Positions 13,869 through 36,000 of a DNA stretch of 64,000 nt are shown here, one piece after another (positions within the stretch are counted from its first letter, which is position 1; each line of letters opens with the position of its first letter). This DNA comes from Lachnospiraceae bacterium (lineage in GTDB: Bacteria; Bacillota; Clostridia; Lachnospirales; Lachnospiraceae). A program made the position numbers and the translations under genes. The notes below the pieces were generated by a model. That model searched no databases. It had not been told where the DNA came from and saw only the letters and a program-made list of their open reading frames with translations. The stretch spans positions 20,154-84,153 of the forward strand of contig JAGAOO010000030.1 in assembly GCA_017623675.1 (NCBI GenBank), in the 5' to 3' direction.

Positions 13869-15065
13869 TTATGACTCTTTTTCATTGGAATGTGGGATTG
13901 CTGCATAGCTCCTATCCACCGTTATAACACACTGATAGCCCGGGTATTCCTCTGACACCAAGTTCTGAATCCGTTCCTTTACTTCCATATCTGTCAAATG
14001 AAATTCATATGGCACCACACAATCAAAAATCATATTGGTATGACTGATGCCGGGCACCATTCGCAAATCGTGAATCGTCAACTCTTCATCAATGGTCTTT
14101 ACCTGTCTGCTTAACCATTTCCGCAAATCTCCTACTGCTTCATCACTGGTAACAATAGGGTCATAGTGAATAATCATATTCAAATTATCATTTTCCAGAA
14201 AATCCTTCTCAATATTGTCAATAATATCATGGCATTTTAATACGTCCTCTTCTGCCGCCATTTCCACATGTACACTGGCAAACAAACGTCCCGGACCATA
14301 ATCATGAACCATCAAATCATGGGTGCCAAGCACCCCATCATAAGACATAATCTTTTTCTGAATCATATCCACAAGAGCCGGGTCCGGTGCCTTTCCAAGC
14401 AATGGGTCTAAGGTATCCTTTACCAAACCAAAGCCACTGTATAGGATGAACAATGCAACCAGAATTCCCATCCAGCCATCCAGATTAAGACTGGTATAAC
14501 GAGACACAATTGCAGCAATCAAAACAGCTCCGGTGCTAATCACATCATTCCGACTGTCTGCTGCTGTTGCTATCAGAGTTTCAGAAGAAATGGTTTTTCC
14601 AACCTTACGATTAAACACAGCCATCCATAATTTTACCAGTATAGACCCAACCAGAATTCCCACCATAAGCCAGCTGAATTGTACCGGTTCCGGATTCCGT
14701 ACCTTCTGAACACTGGTGCTTAACAATTCCACACCAATGACCATAATCAGCACAGCAACCAAAAGCCCTGCCAGATATTCATATCGGGCATGACCATAGG
14801 GATGATCCTTGTCTGCCGGTTTACTTCCCATCTTAAAACCTAACAGACTGATAATATTTGAAGATGCATCTGAAAGGTTATTAATTGCATCTGCCGAAAT
14901 GGATACACTACCGGAAATCATACCAATAAAAAACTTACTAAGAAACAGCAGTATATTACAGAAAATTCCTACCCAGCCTGCCATTTTTCCATAGCCACTG
15001 CGCACCTTCAAGTCTTGTACATTTTTATAATCCTTTACGAACCAACGTATTAATAATTTTGTCAT
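13869..15065 (-). CDS. cation diffusion facilitator (CDF) metal exporter
   Basis: 398 residues. A six-helix CDF membrane domain covers ~30-225, with the metal-site signature SADAINNLSDASSNI in helix II (Asp/Asn ligands) and SRNDVIST in helix V. HPYGHARYEYLA lies in the loop between helices II and III. The C-terminal cytoplasmic ferredoxin-like domain (~230-390) has HDLMVHDYGPGRLFASVHVE and extends further than in minimal CDF proteins. These are proton-coupled exporters of Zn, Fe, Mn or Co; the metal is not determinable here. It is upstream of fliB by 28 bases and probably cotranscribed. Confidence 0.9.
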   Translation of the reverse strand: MTKLLIRWFVKDYKNVQDLKVRSGYGKMAGWVGIFCNILLFLSKFFIGMISGSVSISADAINNLSDASSNIISLLGFKMGSKPADKDHPYGHARYEYLAGLLVAVLIMVIGVELLSTSVQKVRNPEPVQFSWLMVGILVGSILVKLWMAVFNRKVGKTISSETLIATAADSRNDVISTGAVLIAAIVSRYTSLNLDGWMGILVALFILYSGFGLVKDTLDPLLGKAPDPALVDMIQKKIMSYDGVLGTHDLMVHDYGPGRLFASVHVEMAAEEDVLKCHDIIDNIEKDFLENDNLNMIIHYDPIVTSDEAVGDLRKWLSRQVKTIDEELTIHDLRMVPGISHTNMIFDCVVPYEFHLTDMEVKERIQNLVSEEYPGYQCVITVDRSYAAIPHSNEKES

Positions 15066-15193: not shown

Positions 15194-17749
15194 TTATACC
15201 AACACACTTCCGTACTTCACTTTTACACGTTCAATCCTTCGAAGCATAATTTTCGCTCCCAGTAGCAAGAATAAAACGGTGGCCCCTCCATGCGTCAAGT
15301 CAAAGGGAAAACCGGACAGATAATACGCTGCTACCACCTCGCGGCTTAAGGGCACACCGGCCAGAATTGCAGTTGACAAGTTCATGACTCCTCCATAGAG
15401 CAACACCGTCGCAAGGAAACCATAGATGCATAACTTGATTACAAACCCATTTTCTTTCTTTTTATCCTTCCACTGATACTTCTTTTTCTGATGGAACAAC
15501 AATCCTGCTAAAAAGCCAATCATGCCCATGGCAAACATCTGCCAGGGAGTCCACGGTCCCTGTCCGAACAGCATATTCGATACCAGCATAGTAATGGCTC
15601 CTACCAGAAAGCCTGTCTCACCTCCAAAGGCTACACCGGCAATAATCGTCAATGCTGTTACCGGTTTAAAGGAGGGTAGCATGGCAAATATTCCCCGTCC
15701 GGCTACTCCCAAGGCACAAAATACAGAAAGGAGCACCAAATCTCTCGCCGGAGGTCTCCGTCCTTCAAATACGAGAACAAAAGGCAGCATAGCTTCCACT
15801 AGTATTAACAAAGAAATAAACAGATACTTTTCATCATGTAAGAATTGATTACCCACATAAATCGTAACCGGAATTGTCAGCAAGGGAATCCCAATGGCAA
15901 GTTTTTTTTGAATTGAATTGTGTGTCTCACTAATTTCTGTTGCACTAATTTCCATTGACTGCGAATCTTTTACATCAGGTTTTCTTTTTTTAGATTCATT
16001 TTTATCCGAATTCTGATTCCTATTTTCTCTATCTATTATATGCTGTTCCGTTTTTCCTCCACACGCTTTTATTACCTGTGAGACAGTCACAGCCGTTGGC
16101 AGAATCTGACGCACCATTCGATTAGTATTCGTAGTATAAAAATAATTTCCGGAAAAGAAACGTGTCGGCGTATCCTCTGCTACCATCTGTCCATCAAACA
16201 TTAACATACAACGGTCAGCATATTCTGCACAAAAGTCCACATCATGGCTAACCATGAGTATTGTGACTCCCTGTGACGTCAATTGTTTCAATATACCTGC
16301 AAAGATTTCTTTATATCCCACATCAAAGCCCTTGGTCGGCTCGTCCAACAGTAAGATATCCGGTTGGGTCAACAGTATTTTTGCCAATGCAAGGCGCTGT
16401 TGCTCCCCACCGGACAGATCATAAGGATGTCGTTCCAAAAGTCCTTCTAATTGACACAGCCGAATGACTTCTTCTATTTCCTTTCGAAATTCTTCTGTGG
16501 ATTTCTTATCATCTGCCTGACAGTCCCACATATCCTCCAATTCCTCTTTGACACATTCCTCTGTAAACAGTAACTGGGGATTCTGTGGCAGACTAATCAC
16601 CCGTTGCTTTCTTTCCTGTGGGAAACGAACACTACCTCTCTGTGGTTTATAACCACCATGAATCATAGAAAGCAAAGTTGTTTTTCCACAACCATTTCCT
16701 CCTAATATGGCTAATAATTCTCCTTCATGCCCTTCCAGAGAAGCTCCCTTTAAAATATCAGTCCCCTTTTTATCATAACGGAACCAAATATCCTTTACTA
16801 CAAGAGTGCAAGTACGTTTCTGCCGGGATAACCGATTCTTTTCTATCTCTTCTTTTCCAGAACCCTCTGCTTTCATTTCCAGCCCGTCCTTATGTTGCGA
16901 AACTTTATCTGCATGAGTATCAGCCCAATTCTGAAACCAGGTTCTTCCCTCCTGCACCGTCATAGGGCATTCCTGCTTTTCTGTTTCTATTCCATTCCAG
17001 ATACGCATAGGTGCCGGCATTGCAGAAAACAATGATAACTCTCCCTCCCGCATAACTTCTGCCACTTCTTCCGCTTTGCCATCAATGGTGATTGTTCCTT
17101 CCTCCATGACTAAAAGACGGGTACAGATTGGGATAACATCATCCAGTCGATGCTCTGTCATCAAAATGGTAGTACCCAGTTCCCGATGAATTCGTCCCAA
17201 GGTGGCAATGAAATCCGATGCTGCAATTGGATCTAACTGGCTGGTTGGTTCGTCTAACAGAAGAATTTCCGGTTGCATCACCATAACCGCAGCCAGATTC
17301 AAAAGCTGCTTCTGTCCACCGGATAGTTGTGCTGTATCCTGATGAAACCATTCCTGAATTCCAAAAAAATGACTCATTTCTGCCACTCGTTTCTGAATTA
17401 TGGAATTCTCCATTCCCATACTTTCCAGTCCAAATGCCAACTCATGCCAGACCTTATCTGTGACAATCTGCTCCTCCGGATTCTGACTGACGAAACCAAT
17501 GCCACTGGTCTGAGTTTTCAAATCTATCTCCTGTAAAGGAGTTCCATGAAAGTAGATTCTTCCTTCCAATCGTCCCTGTGCTGCAATTGCCGGTTTTAGC
17601 TGTCGAAGCAGGGTTGTTTTTCCACAGCCGGAGGCACCACAAAGCACCAGAAACTCTCCGCTTTGAATCTGTAAGGCCACATCATGTAACACTCTTTGAT
17701 TGCTATCGGCATACTGAAAGCCGAACTCTTCCAAACGAACTAATTCCAT
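15194..17749 (-). CDS. ECF transporter fusion: EcfA-EcfA' ATPases joined to an S component
   Basis: 851 residues. ABC domain 1 (Walker A GASGCGKTT at 38-46, LSGGQKQ, Walker B LLLLDEPTSQLDP) and ABC domain 2 (LGGNGCGKTT, DLSGGEQQRLA, LLLLDEPTKGFD) are the two energizing ATPases. A charged linker (ENRNQNSDKNESKKRKPDVK) leads to residues ~613-851, a six-helix substrate-binding S component with FGGETGFLVGAITMLVSNML and GQGPWTPWQMFAMG. These parts are normally separate subunits. The start ATG overlaps the ecfT stop by ten bases. The fourth gene under a cobalamin riboswitch, it most likely imports cobalamin or a corrinoid. Confidence 0.88.
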   Translation of the reverse strand: MELVRLEEFGFQYADSNQRVLHDVALQIQSGEFLVLCGASGCGKTTLLRQLKPAIAAQGRLEGRIYFHGTPLQEIDLKTQTSGIGFVSQNPEEQIVTDKVWHELAFGLESMGMENSIIQKRVAEMSHFFGIQEWFHQDTAQLSGGQKQLLNLAAVMVMQPEILLLDEPTSQLDPIAASDFIATLGRIHRELGTTILMTEHRLDDVIPICTRLLVMEEGTITIDGKAEEVAEVMREGELSLFSAMPAPMRIWNGIETEKQECPMTVQEGRTWFQNWADTHADKVSQHKDGLEMKAEGSGKEEIEKNRLSRQKRTCTLVVKDIWFRYDKKGTDILKGASLEGHEGELLAILGGNGCGKTTLLSMIHGGYKPQRGSVRFPQERKQRVISLPQNPQLLFTEECVKEELEDMWDCQADDKKSTEEFRKEIEEVIRLCQLEGLLERHPYDLSGGEQQRLALAKILLTQPDILLLDEPTKGFDVGYKEIFAGILKQLTSQGVTILMVSHDVDFCAEYADRCMLMFDGQMVAEDTPTRFFSGNYFYTTNTNRMVRQILPTAVTVSQVIKACGGKTEQHIIDRENRNQNSDKNESKKRKPDVKDSQSMEISATEISETHNSIQKKLAIGIPLLTIPVTIYVGNQFLHDEKYLFISLLILVEAMLPFVLVFEGRRPPARDLVLLSVFCALGVAGRGIFAMLPSFKPVTALTIIAGVAFGGETGFLVGAITMLVSNMLFGQGPWTPWQMFAMGMIGFLAGLLFHQKKKYQWKDKKKENGFVIKLCIYGFLATVLLYGGVMNLSTAILAGVPLSREVVAAYYLSGFPFDLTHGGATVLFLLLGAKIMLRRIERVKVKYGSVLV

Positions 17750-18606
17750 TTTACTGCCTCCTTTCCCAGCACTATCATAGGCAATGCCATCAATGCACCG
17801 TATGCCAGATAAATTCCAATGGTCCAACCGTCCATATCTGCATATATTATCATAGGAAAACATACCCAATATAATTTCCCCAGCAACACTCCTGCTAATA
17901 CAATTCCATCTAAAGTCAAAATCACAACAAGCAATATTGTGTCTCTCGGGCTCCAACGAAAGAGAGAAAATGCGGTTCTGCCCGACAATCCATATCCTCG
18001 TCCTTTCATAGAATTTGCAGTATCTATCCCATGCTCCATGGTCCATGTCAGCATGATGGATAGAACCCGGATTCCCGTTCGAAATCTGGAGCCTAAGTTT
18101 CCCTTCTTCATGCTTTTTCCTAACTGCCTTTGTGCTTCTGTCACAGCACGAAATTGCTTTCCATATTGAGGCACGAATCGCAAAATCATCGAAAGCACCA
18201 GACTAAGTACCGGTATCATTCTTCCAAACAAATAAAGCCATTTTTCTGTATTAATTACTTTATGAAAACAAGAAAACCATAAGATAACCGCAGTTAATAT
18301 TCCTGCCGCCACCATTCCATAGATAATCGATTCTAATGTAAAAGGGTTCCCACTGGGAAAATAACCAAGAATTGTCACTCCCTGATGATTCACAAGAGGA
18401 TTGATAAAAATAATCAAAAGTGCCATAGGCAACAGAAATAAGAATTGTCTGTATTTCCTGTCGTACAGCCAAAAGCTGTATGCCCCGGCAAAAATTATGG
18501 CAATAGCCAAGCAGACCGGTTGCCGTAAGAACATGGCAAATCCGGTCACACTTAGAAAAAATAACATATTTATAATTGGATGGTAATCTGAAAAGGTATC
18601 TCTCAT
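17740..18606 (-). CDS. ecfT: ECF transporter T component (EcfT)
   Basis: 288 residues, with five or six membrane segments (for example INMLFFLSVTGFAM, LLPMALLIIFINPL, GMVAAGILTAVILWF and the C-terminal pair). The cytoplasmic coupling helices carry the EcfT signature MKGRGYG near residue 200 and an earlier RFVPQYGKQFRAVTEAQR. EcfT transmits ATPase motion to the S component. Its neighbours are the DUF4430 protein upstream and the EcfA-EcfA'-S fusion downstream, overlapping by ten bases. The start has GAGGAAG just upstream. Confidence 0.9.
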   Translation of the reverse strand: MRDTFSDYHPIINMLFFLSVTGFAMFLRQPVCLAIAIIFAGAYSFWLYDRKYRQFLFLLPMALLIIFINPLVNHQGVTILGYFPSGNPFTLESIIYGMVAAGILTAVILWFSCFHKVINTEKWLYLFGRMIPVLSLVLSMILRFVPQYGKQFRAVTEAQRQLGKSMKKGNLGSRFRTGIRVLSIMLTWTMEHGIDTANSMKGRGYGLSGRTAFSLFRWSPRDTILLVVILTLDGIVLAGVLLGKLYWVCFPMIIYADMDGWTIGIYLAYGALMALPMIVLGKEAVKWN

Positions 18607-18644: not shown

Positions 18645-19394
18645 CTACTCGCTGCAAGAATAATTCCACTGAATACTATCGCCTTCTTTTAATACATAAG
18701 ACGCAGCACCATAATTCGGATAAACTCCATTCACACAGTACATCCAGCCGGAATAGGTTCCGCAGTCGCGTTCATAAAGATTCTGAATTCCCCGTACATA
18801 TCCTGATGAGGCATCTAAGGGAATTCCTGCATTGGTACAAGTTCTCCGTAACACATCATAAACCGTTTCTCCTTCTGTTACTGTTACGGTAGTACTTAGT
18901 ATCGTTCCATCGGATGGTACTAAACCAGCCTTTTCCGGTTTCAATGAATCCATATGACTTAAGATTTCTGCACAAGAAATAGTCAATGTGCATTGAAAGG
19001 TTACAGCTTGTGTATTCACCGCTTCCGCTGTGCTTTCTGTTGCGGTTGTGGTTTCCGTTGCAGATGCACTTTCTGCTGTAGTTGTAGTTTCTGTTACAGG
19101 TGTATCATCAGAAACCGTTGTCTCCTTCTTCGTTGCTGTGGTTGTAGCTGAACCGGTTTCTATCTGATTCCTGCTCTCTGCATCATTTCCTTCCGGTCTT
19201 CCCTCTTCCGAAGTTTTACTCGCATCGGAATTCGAAATTGTTGTCTTATTTTCCTGTGTTGCTTCCGTTGCAGCCGTTTCATTATCGGTAGAACCGGAAG
19301 GCTTCGTTCCTCCCAGAAAGAAGGCCGCCACTAATACAATGACAGTAATACTTCCGGCAATGATTATGTTCTTATGTGCTTTTATCCATTGCAT
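18645..19394 (-). CDS. membrane-anchored DUF4430 protein (intrinsic-factor beta-domain-like)
   Basis: 249 residues. An N-terminal membrane anchor (NIIIAGSITVIVLVAAFFLG, residues 9-28) is followed by a ~95-residue Thr/Ser/Glu/Ala-rich stalk. The globular part (~128-249) has VTEGETVYDVLRRTC, DCGTYSGWMYCVNGVYPN and SYVLKEGDSIQW. This is the DUF4430 fold, which also forms the beta domain of human intrinsic factor and transcobalamin. It would display a cobalamin-binding domain outside the membrane. Cotranscribed with the alpha-domain-like protein upstream and ECF genes downstream, under a cobalamin riboswitch. Binding of corrinoid is inferred. Confidence 0.85.
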   Translation of the reverse strand: MQWIKAHKNIIIAGSITVIVLVAAFFLGGTKPSGSTDNETAATEATQENKTTISNSDASKTSEEGRPEGNDAESRNQIETGSATTTATKKETTVSDDTPVTETTTTAESASATETTTATESTAEAVNTQAVTFQCTLTISCAEILSHMDSLKPEKAGLVPSDGTILSTTVTVTEGETVYDVLRRTCTNAGIPLDASSGYVRGIQNLYERDCGTYSGWMYCVNGVYPNYGAASYVLKEGDSIQWNYSCSE

Positions 19395-19447
19395 TGATGT
19401 GGTTCTCCTTCCTCAAGCATTATCTCTTCCATTCACTTTCACATTTC

Positions 19448-20626
19448 TTACTGCATATTCTTCTTACGACTCAGATATACAGCACCACTGGCTGCGAACA
19501 GTGCCATACCTGCCAATAATACAACCGGCATAGTATCTCCGGTCTTTGGCGTATCATCCTTCTTTGCTGCAGTGGTTGCTTCCGTAGAAGCTTCTGTTGC
19601 ACTTGTGCTTTGCTCTGATGAAGGGTCATTGATTGGTGTTGCATCTGACATATTATAAAATGCGGTCTTTCCTGCAACCAACCGTTGATATGCATTCAAA
19701 CCATATGTTCCTTGTGCAGTTGATAAAGCATTTACAATTTCACCAGTTGCACTAACACGAAAACCGCTTCCTTCATTATAGAATCCATGTAACGCATCCA
19801 AAATAGTTTTGTCACCTTTAATAAATCTTGCATCTGTCTGAGCATCAATTCCTAACGTTGATAATGCAATCAGAACTTGTATGGTAGTTCCTGTGTTACT
19901 GACATTATAATAACTATCATTAAAGCTACCATCAGCATTCTGTGCTAATGACAAAGCAATCAAAGCATTGTCAACTGCTGTTTTTACATTGGCATTCGAA
20001 TTATAATATGGTGCCAGAGCCTGAATTGCCATCGCAGTTTCATCTGCATCCATAGTTGTTCCATCCCAACTCCAACCACCGGTTGCCACAACATCCGTTG
20101 TCAAAATATTTTGAATTAAAGCTTCTCTCGTTGTTTTATTTGCTACCGATACATCTGGAATTGTATAATTCTTAGTATCTAATGCTACTAAAGCATTCAT
20201 TGAGCCATACATTGTATTATAGCCATTTGCAGTTACATAATCTAAGTCTCCTAATGGTTCTAGTAAGTTATATCCAGCTACACTGGTTGGATCTTTCCCA
20301 ATTGCAACAACTGCCAATATCTCACGTGTAGACATATACGTTGGATCAAATTTACTACTACCATTTTCTCTTACCTTAGCTTCCAGACTTGCATAATACT
20401 GCTCCGCCTTCTCATAGCTTAATTTTCCTGCTCTTGCAAGTGTAATAACCTGCCATTCATTACCATACCCGCATTCAGAATTCAATGCTGTATCAATCAG
20501 AGTTAATCCACCTTGATACATATTGTCCAATGCCGCAGTATCTAATGCAAATACCTCTGTTTGCATAATACCAGCCACCATAAATGCTGCTAACAGCACC
20601 GCCAACATCCTTTTCCATTTTTTCAT
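19448..20626 (-). CDS. sortase-anchored alpha/alpha-barrel protein (intrinsic-factor alpha-domain-like)
   Basis: 392 residues with a signal peptide (MLAVLLAAFMVAGIMQTEVFA). Residues ~30-310 contain repeated helical pairs with QALAPY, SLAQNADGSFND and DALHGFYNEGSGF, typical of the prenyltransferase/terpenoid-cyclase-like alpha/alpha barrel. The alpha domain of intrinsic factor has this same fold. A short Ser/Thr linker precedes a sorting signal: TPKTGD (LPXTG variant with Thr first), a hydrophobic segment and SRKKNMQ. It is the first gene after the cobalamin riboswitch. A role in capturing B12 at the wall together with the DUF4430 protein is inference from fold and operon. The start has AAGGAG upstream. 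Confidence 0.85.
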   Translation of the reverse strand: MKKWKRMLAVLLAAFMVAGIMQTEVFALDTAALDNMYQGGLTLIDTALNSECGYGNEWQVITLARAGKLSYEKAEQYYASLEAKVRENGSSKFDPTYMSTREILAVVAIGKDPTSVAGYNLLEPLGDLDYVTANGYNTMYGSMNALVALDTKNYTIPDVSVANKTTREALIQNILTTDVVATGGWSWDGTTMDADETAMAIQALAPYYNSNANVKTAVDNALIALSLAQNADGSFNDSYYNVSNTGTTIQVLIALSTLGIDAQTDARFIKGDKTILDALHGFYNEGSGFRVSATGEIVNALSTAQGTYGLNAYQRLVAGKTAFYNMSDATPINDPSSEQSTSATEASTEATTAAKKDDTPKTGDTMPVVLLAGMALFAASGAVYLSRKKNMQ

Positions 20627-20769
20627 TTCTTACACGCTCCTTTTCATCACTTGAAATCTTATTGATAAATGTCTTATTCCGGGCTGAAATGAAAATAGAT
20701 ACCATTATGTTCATCAGCCATGTTATGGCAACAAAAATAAACATCTTCTTGCCTAAAGATATTTACAAG

Positions 20770-20955
20770 TATTCCCTCTTTACGTATTGTGTTCCGACTC
20801 TGGTTCCTCCTACTTGAATCGCCTTCCCAAAGCGCAGGCTTCAGTGACATAATGATTCGTTCGTCCCCATTACGGCTGGGATAACAGTCCGGCCTTTCAC
20901 CGAGTTCCTTTAAACGGACCAAGCTATCGCTCTGTCCGACCGTAAAGTTCACAGA
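20770..20955 (-). ncRNA. cobalamin riboswitch
   Basis: The minus-strand RNA carries the conserved cobalamin-aptamer blocks in order: TTTAAAGGAACTCGGTGAAA, GGCCGGACTGT, AGCCGTAATGGGGACGAACG, GTCACTG, TTTGGGAAGGCG, then AAGTAGGAGGAACCAGAGTC. A promoter lies just upstream (20979-21007). The leader continues to the start codon at 20626 and includes a GGCTGATGAA/TTTCATTTCAGCC hairpin (about 20680-20720) without a T run, so the output mechanism is unclear. It controls the alpha-protein, DUF4430, ecfT, ecfAA'S operon. Confidence 0.85.
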
Positions 20956-20978
20956 ATTATGACGTTTTCAACGGTTCT

Positions 20979-25198: not shown

Positions 25199-26476
25199 CT
25201 ATATCTGGCTCAGTGCCTGTTCCAAATCAGCAATGATATCTTCTACATTTTCAATACCAACCGATAAACGAATCAAGTCCGGTGCCACACCGGCTTCCAA
25301 CAATTGCTCCTCCGTCATCTGGCGATGGGTATGACTTGCCGGATGTAATAAACATGTCTTACTATCTGCAACATGGGTTACAATAGATGCCAACTGCAAT
25401 TTGTCCATGAAGGAAATGGATGTTTCCCGACCACCCTTTAAGCCGAATGCCAGCACACCACAGGAACCATTTGGCATATATTTTTCTGCCAAAGCATGAT
25501 ATTGGTTGCTCTCCAAATCCGGATAATTTACCCAAGCCACCTTATCATTGCTCTCTAAATATTTGGCAACTGCCAATGCATTACTGCAATGCTGTTTCAT
25601 ACGCAAAGGCAAAGTTTCCAAGCCCAGATTCAGATAAAATGCATTCTGTGGCGATTGAATGGAACCTAAATCCCGCATTAACTGAGAGGTTGCCTTGGTG
25701 ATATAAGCTGCTTTTCCAAACCGTTCTGCATATACAATTCCATGATAAGATTCATCCGGTGTGGTTAAGCCCGGATATTTTTCTTTCTGCGCCATCCAGT
25801 CAAAATTACCACTGTCTACGATACAGCCACCGACTGCAACTGCATGTCCATCCATATATTTGGTTGTAGAATGTGTAACAATATCAGCTCCCCACTCAAA
25901 TGGACGACAGTTTACAGGTGTTGCAAATGTATTATCTACAATCAATGGCACGCCATGCTTATGTGCCAGTCTTGCAAATTTCTCAATATCCAATACAGAA
26001 ACCGTTGGATTGGTAATTGTCTCTCCAAAGACCGCCTTAGTATTCGGTTTAAAGTATTGCTCCAACTCTTCTTCCGGCAAATCCTGGTCAACAAAGGTAC
26101 ATTCAATTCCCATTTTCTTCATGGTTGTACCAAACAGATTATATGTACCACCGTATATGGAGCTGGATGCAATAAAATGATCCCCTGCTTCACAGATATT
26201 AAACATGGCATAAAAATTGGCTGCCTGTCCGGATGCGGTCAACATTGCTGCCACACCGCCCTCTAAAGAACAGATTCTGGCTGCCACTGCATCATTGGTT
26301 GGGTTCTGTAAACGGGTATAGAAATAACCATCTGCTTCCAAATCAAACAGCTTTCCCATTTCATCACTGGTATCGTACTTGAAGGTAGTACTCTGAATAA
26401 TCGGCATCTGTCTTGGTTCACCTTTGGTTGGTTTGTAGCCCTCCTGAATACATTTTGTCTCAATTCTTGTTTCCAT
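25199..26476 (-). CDS. metY: O-acetylhomoserine sulfhydrylase (MetY)
   Basis: 425 residues of the Cys/Met-metabolism PLP family. The PLP lysine lies in THSTTKYMDGHAV (near residue 205). Other motifs are YTRLQNPTND, ASGQAANF, SSSIYGGTYNLF and the Asp in LIVDNTFATP. Length and motif spacing match MetY (O-acetylhomoserine plus sulfide to homocysteine) better than the shorter cystathionine gamma-synthases. Monocistronic with its own promoter (26519-26548) and terminator. No SAM riboswitch is present; the leader is only about 35 bases. Confidence 0.88.
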   Translation of the reverse strand: METRIETKCIQEGYKPTKGEPRQMPIIQSTTFKYDTSDEMGKLFDLEADGYFYTRLQNPTNDAVAARICSLEGGVAAMLTASGQAANFYAMFNICEAGDHFIASSSIYGGTYNLFGTTMKKMGIECTFVDQDLPEEELEQYFKPNTKAVFGETITNPTVSVLDIEKFARLAHKHGVPLIVDNTFATPVNCRPFEWGADIVTHSTTKYMDGHAVAVGGCIVDSGNFDWMAQKEKYPGLTTPDESYHGIVYAERFGKAAYITKATSQLMRDLGSIQSPQNAFYLNLGLETLPLRMKQHCSNALAVAKYLESNDKVAWVNYPDLESNQYHALAEKYMPNGSCGVLAFGLKGGRETSISFMDKLQLASIVTHVADSKTCLLHPASHTHRQMTEEQLLEAGVAPDLIRLSVGIENVEDIIADLEQALSQI

Positions 26477-35869: not shown

Positions 35870-35891
35870 ATGCCCTAGTAAGTAAATATTC

Positions 35892-36000
35892 TTCAGGGCA
35901 GGGTGCAATTCCCTACCGGCGGTACAGCCCGCGAGCCGCAAGGCATGATTCGGTGTAATTCCGAAGCCGACAGTATAGTCTGGATGAGAGAAGAAGGTAG
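35892..36000 (+). ncRNA. FMN riboswitch (RFN element)
   Basis: The canonical RFN blocks occur in order: TTCAGGGCAGGGTGCAATTC, CCTACCGGCGGTA, AGCCCGCGAGCC, GATTCGGTGTAATTCCGAAG, CCGACAGTATAGTCTGGATG and GAGAAGAAG. It controls the five-gene riboflavin operon downstream through the terminator at 36009-36033. Confidence 0.97.

Follow-up and report, generated by a model that had tools for sequence, protein, structure and literature searches.

We analyzed a 64,000-nucleotide stretch of DNA, referred to in its whole length as the window, from the draft genome (G000) of a Lachnospiraceae bacterium (assembly GCA_017623675.1, contig JAGAOO010000030.1, forward-strand positions 20,154 to 84,153). Two intact open reading frames (ORFs) from the ORF list fill positions 18645-20626 of the window. 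With the neighboring genes of an energy-coupling factor (ECF) transporter, they probably make up an operon with which a Gram-positive bacterium, apparently auxotrophic for B12, scavenges corrinoids (vitamin B12); two separate chains would capture the ligand for import by the ECF system. The features of the locus are the following:

21007-20979, minus strand: promoter-like site (TTGACA-17-TACAAT; 11 of 12 matches in a consensus scan, by itself no evidence of function), directly 5′ of the riboswitch
20766-20960, minus strand: cobalamin riboswitch aptamer heading the operon (RF00174, 56.4 bits; cut-off, 31.5)
19448-20626, minus strand: gene 1, encoding P0001 (392 amino acids), with a signal peptide (by eye), an alpha/alpha toroid at about residues 30-330, and a sortase-type tail of PKTGD, a hydrophobic stretch and RKK
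18645-19394, minus strand: gene 2, encoding P0002 (249 amino acids), with an N-terminal membrane anchor (by eye), a low-complexity linker at about residues 30-131, and DUF4430 at residues 175-246
17740-18606, minus strand: gene for EcfT (288 amino acids), named by kinship with the EcfT of a relative (L180)
15194-17749, minus strand: gene for a fused EcfA-EcfA′-S protein, its start inferred at a methionine overlapping the ecfT stop (the mechanical ORF reaches 18046)
13869-15065: cation-efflux gene (Pfam scan), next after the EcfA-A′-S gene

The gaps of 53 and 38 bases between gene 1, gene 2 and ecfT, and the overlap of ecfT with the gene after it, argue that these four genes form one operon. 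A cobalamin riboswitch at the head of both capture genes had been proposed in a reading of the sequence alone (hereafter the sequence-only reading), and the Rfam match bears this out: it is full-length (model positions 1-189 of 189) and is the single RF00174 match in the draft genome. Riboswitches of this class are described, in the sections of the source available to us, as turning expression off when cobalamin is plentiful (PMC11477304).

The product of the first gene had been read as a sortase-anchored alpha/alpha-barrel protein, and both elements of that description held up. The tail of P0001 scores above the cut-off of the LPXTG-anchor model TIGR01167 (22.4 bits; cut-off, 15.9) and falls under that of Pfam Gram_pos_anchor (17.8 bits; cut-off, 20). 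The draft genome has four sortase-like places, three of them above cut-off. The AlphaFold2 model of P0001, which has a predicted local distance difference test (pLDDT) score of 95.6, is a toroid, as confirmed for the model by Foldseek and by VIA comparison. P0001 is the single toroid protein detected in the draft genome (E <= 1e-6). By itself it found no match among the sequences of the Protein Data Bank (PDB), and a scan of viral contigs with it found no relative. It keeps 79 of the 93 strongly conserved toroid columns, including D195, T197 and Q250, each of which is invariant in all 84 aligned toroids.

A sequence profile of the toroids, searched against the PDB, leads to squalene-hopene-cyclase-like enzymes. 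Conceivably the toroid acts as a terpene cyclase-like or prenyltransferase-like enzyme that stands next to a B12 importer by coincidence, a reading to which we give hardly any credence. Class II terpene cyclases carry a DxDD acid motif; the fourth position of that motif is hydrophobic in 82 of the 84 aligned toroids (D-x-D-hydrophobic) and is glutamate in the window, which reads DADE. Moreover, the toroid protein has export and anchor signals, and DUF4430 accompanies the toroid in every genome of the family that has one (see below).

As for the second gene, its description as coding for a membrane-tethered DUF4430 protein is sustained by the Pfam match (PF14478, 66.1 bits; cut-off, 23.8) and by a hydrophobic N-terminal anchor recognized by eye. 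The linker of about 100 residues that separates anchor from domain is rich in threonine, alanine, glutamate and serine. P0002 alone had no match among PDB sequences, and a DUF4430 profile drew weak, unrelated PDB matches only. No other DUF4430 protein was detected in the draft genome. As a single toroid and a single DUF4430 protein were found in the draft genome, encoded by separate ORFs of one operon, the split between the two appears to be complete there.

An ECF importer adjoins the capture genes, as had been noted from the sequence: the EcfA-A′-S protein has two ABC_tran stretches and an ECF_trnsprt match (43.1 bits) in Pfam, and EcfT is assigned by kinship only. The EcfT ORF of the window does not reach Pfam CbiQ; it is 44% identical to the L180 EcfT, which does (35.9 bits), and three of five EcfT proteins scanned from relatives match CbiQ above cut-off and two do not. 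The sole significant match of the S component among PDB sequences is 6fnp (6fnp_A; E 1.3e-7), the ECF-CbrT transporter of Lactobacillus delbrueckii, for which cobalamin uptake is reported as demonstrated in the portion of the paper available (PMC5997447). A profile of 43 S components likewise found 6fnp first (E 2.1e-21), followed by RibU (7.1e-6). When 41 S components were placed in a tree, those with a riboswitch clustered without separating cleanly from the rest; the S component of the window fell in a group of 16 with middling branch support (92/96), and 13 members of this group have a riboswitch.

The gene content of the host points in the same direction. CbiC (PF02570) was found neither in the draft genome, which is 93.8% complete, nor in its genus-mate, this being a single marker. 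The draft genome does have a MetH-like protein (an 814-amino-acid ORF matching the metH model over 622 amino acids with E 3.1e-127, at 425.8 bits against a cut-off of 1010.85), and B12-binding-domain matches occur at eight places including this one, five of them above cut-off. Across 299 genomes of the family, CbiC was present in 18 of 63 genomes with a toroid and in 152 of 236 without (p 6.5e-7). Thus the riboswitch, the CbrT-like S component, the combination of no detected CbiC with a MetH-like protein, and the folds together support the role in B12 capture that the sequence-only reading had proposed. Elsewhere in the window, a few kilobases from the operon, an ORF at 25199-26476 (minus strand) resembles, by eye, the methionine-pathway enzyme O-acetylhomoserine sulfhydrylase. 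At 35885-35999 (plus strand) a flavin mononucleotide riboswitch lies 5′ of a hydrolase-like ORF, which is followed by a ribD-like ORF (both functions by eye).

The proposed likeness to human intrinsic factor and transcobalamin is supported. For P0001 it stands by prediction: transcobalamin ranks first when the toroid model is compared with the PDB by Foldseek. The likeness of DUF4430 to the beta domain of transcobalamin is seen on a relative's protein and not on P0002 itself. For two-domain comparison, 12 natural toroid-DUF4430 spans (alignment A5) were folded; an alignment mixing single-domain and fused rows (A4) was dropped because toroid C-termini had slid into DUF4430 columns. For the model of one natural toroid-DUF4430 fusion (L167), the top 15 Foldseek matches are all transcobalamin (again ranked first), haptocorrin or intrinsic factor, and these span both domains. 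By sequence the animal family is not recognizable: none of its members appeared at E <= 1 in family-model scans or from profiles A3 and A7. The L167 fusion model also resembles PDB 3u7z (RUMGNA_00854 of Ruminococcus gnavus, about 97 residues; template modeling score 0.64-0.66 by target), a solved bacterial structure with the title "putative metal binding protein". This match presumably covers the DUF4430 part of the model, and 3u7z may be a B12-binding beta domain.

Is the association of toroid, DUF4430 and importer a general one? Toroids were found in 63 of the 299 family genomes (E <= 1e-6) and DUF4430 in 152, the latter being present in all 63 toroid genomes and in 89 of the 236 others. A cobalamin riboswitch lies on the same strand within 15 kb upstream of the best toroid place in 33 of the 63 genomes, where chance would give about 0.3 for genomes averaging 2.8 Mb; these counts take one toroid place per genome, include one match under cut-off (27.9 bits, in G188), and may overlook sites past contig ends. 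We mapped 61 loci, namely the window and 60 others from the 63 toroid genomes (G219 and G297 were left out). Classified by the best-scoring toroid ORF, 28 have a toroid-only protein and a separate DUF4430 protein (four of these, L080, L083, L088 and L094, also carry a fused protein in the stretch), 19 have a fused and a separate protein, 10 a fused protein alone, and 4 a toroid alone. EcfT, A and S lie within 8 kb at 40 or more of the 61 loci, a lower bound that excludes the window, as the ORF rule dropped overlapping ORFs, the window's EcfT among them. The nearest relatives (L122 and L123) have DUF4430 fused N-terminal to the toroid and, in addition, a DUF4430 gene standing apart, so that the window, which lacks the fused protein, represents a reduced, fully split form. 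That the two domains are fused and separated in otherwise similar operons argues that they act jointly.

A scan of named genomes yielded at least 565 relatives, of which 78 loci were retained; among the matches listed, these come from Lachnospiraceae, Ruminococcus bromii, Paenibacillus, Terrisporobacter, Lutispora and others, EcfT, A and S lie on the same strand within 8 kb at 56 of the 78, and a riboswitch was found 5′ of the capture genes in 10 of the 14 loci submitted to Rfam (3 of 7 and 7 of 7). Among complete toroid ORFs, a crude sortase-tail pattern matched just 10 of 67 in one set and 7 of 73 in the other; among short ORFs with DUF4430 only, a crude lipobox pattern matched 7 of 33 and 3 of 52. 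These patterns thus assign an anchor to a minority of the relatives, and sortase anchoring of the kind predicted for the window may not be general. Four loci (L064, L069, L073 and L074) have huge ORFs of 2,605-3,382 amino acids with toroid and DUF4430 domains, and riboswitches upstream of the toroids, that of the L069 genome being under cut-off. Three others (L111, L114 and L118), together with L101 and L110, are toroid-DUF4430-ECF operons at which no riboswitch was detected and whose genomes have switches elsewhere; they are candidates for another ligand or another control.

Several observations weigh against corrinoid capture by both chains. At 30 of the 63 toroid loci no riboswitch was detected; in 16 of these genomes one occurs elsewhere, and in the other 14 none was found at all. 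The tree of S components contains a well-supported divergent set of 15, of which 11 are without a riboswitch, and a different substrate is possible for that set. In the toroid, a Q-E-H triad present in 74 of the 84 aligned proteins is replaced by N-G-V in P0001 only (residues 134, 246 and 291), and by Q-C-Y in the near relatives L122 and L123. Finally, P0002 lacks six residues that are retained in the other 35 aligned rows. In the transcobalamin-like clade as described in the available part of a 2007 account (PMC1796856), a ligand-contacting hairpin lies near this place, and the gap would fall within it.

The first two of these observations bear on the identity of the ligand, which might be haem or another tetrapyrrole. 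Haem import of this sort has a precedent in Lactobacillus sakei, whose locus is presumably lsa1836-1840 and may encode surface proteins resembling P0001 and P0002. Haem import by an ECF-like system of that species is described in the part of a review available to us, and a further source (PMC3146418) gives lsa1839 the annotation of a substrate-binding lipoprotein. The 16 toroid genomes whose cobalamin riboswitches lie away from the best toroid locus, some with S components in the divergent set, would fit such a ligand. The window, on the other hand, has its riboswitch at the locus and an S component from the moderately supported group in which 13 of 16 have one, and CbrT is the best PDB match also for a profile of ten rows of the divergent set. 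We therefore judge haem improbable here, and the ligand is very probably a corrinoid.

The changes in the two capture proteins raise a separate question, that of the toroid's contribution. The altered triad could reflect drift or an altered specificity in the lineage, and with three near-invariant residues changed, affinity or specificity may differ. It could also mean that the DUF4430 protein handles the corrinoid by itself, and that the toroid, without its binding residues, serves as a spacer, is a relic, or binds another surface target. Two of the three triad residues are changed also in L122 and L123, in which the toroid retains, in the same chain, an N-terminal DUF4430 domain absent from the window, and the isolated beta domain of human transcobalamin was crystallized with cyanocobalamin and with cobinamide, according to the available text of PMC5599065. 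Against this, the toroid of P0001 is intact and confidently predicted, keeps most of the conserved columns, and is encoded by the first gene under the riboswitch; a ligand role for the triad residues is itself a guess. We consider a DUF4430 protein acting alone unlikely, and prefer capture by both chains.

How might such a two-chain system work? The riboswitch would turn the operon off when cobalamin is plentiful. Once expressed, the product of gene 1 would be exported and attached by sortase to the wall, holding an intrinsic-factor-like toroid outside the membrane, and the product of gene 2 would present a transcobalamin-type beta domain tethered to the membrane through its flexible linker. 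Toroid and beta domain could then close on a single corrinoid, the ligand joining the separate chains as it joins the domains of transcobalamin. This closure, about which we are evenly divided, is suggested by the human protein, whose alpha and beta domains, when expressed separately, assemble in vitro in a cobalamin-dependent manner (PMC5599065, in the part available). From the membrane-tethered beta domain the corrinoid would be carried or released to the CbrT-like S component; uptake, chiefly for methionine synthase, would be powered by EcfT-A-A′. More tentatively, and with rather less confidence than in closure itself, we can imagine a split transcobalamin in which the vitamin acts as glue, the complex opens at the membrane to deliver to the S component, and the changed triad and shortened loop tune the pair to another cobamide or to cobinamide.

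Systems of this kind are not new. Burroughs, Balaji, Iyer and Aravind described in 2007 a bacterial transcobalamin-like clade of SLBB domains, with alpha/alpha toroids, on Gram-positive surface proteins; they proposed that such proteins scavenge B12 and form surface complexes, and that animals gained them from low-GC Gram-positive bacteria (PMC1796856, as far as its text was available). The sequence-only reading was right in outline, and it overrated the novelty because of this prediction and because the split form is common among the mapped loci. We found no experimental test of the 2007 prediction in one open-access library, where subscription papers are mostly absent, and this prediction seems to be the basis of what is held about extracellular B12 capture in Gram-positive bacteria. 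The prediction is easily testable on a minimal locus such as this one, whose single toroid and single beta domain are encoded apart, and which would link the proposed bacterial origin of the human B12 carriers to living bacterial systems.

With the animal carriers intrinsic factor, transcobalamin and haptocorrin, P0001 shares the predicted alpha6/alpha6 toroid fold, and a relative's fusion protein shares both predicted folds. In the animal proteins, toroid and beta domain make up one secreted chain that carries the vitamin to a receptor, whereas the window encodes two chains, apparently anchored, that would serve import at the cell's own surface. BtuG and BtuH of Bacteroides also capture B12 at the surface ahead of an importer, as is proposed for the window pair; they are Gram-negative outer-membrane lipoproteins that feed BtuB, and their folds are unrelated. 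ECF-CbrT has in common with the operon a homologous S component and an ECF module, but in the window A, A′ and S form one polypeptide with its own EcfT, and there are two candidate surface capture proteins, of which the sections available on ECF-CbrT make no mention (PMC5997447). The closest likeness is to the SLBB loci of 2007, which, in the available text (PMC1796856), have signal peptides, Gram-positive anchors, and toroid and SLBB (DUF4430-type) domains, as the window operon does. They lie in operons with CbiO and CbiQ homologs and a second surface SLBB protein, for which the window has two ABC_tran stretches and an EcfT recognized by kinship, and their hosts usually lack key enzymes of B12 synthesis, which the failure to find CbiC in the draft genome parallels. 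Unlike those loci, the window has toroid and DUF4430 in two chains, with no fused copy found in the genome. Neither riboswitches nor a toroid-only protein is mentioned in the parts of the 2007 account available, and to that picture the window adds its cobalamin riboswitch and an S component related to CbrT.
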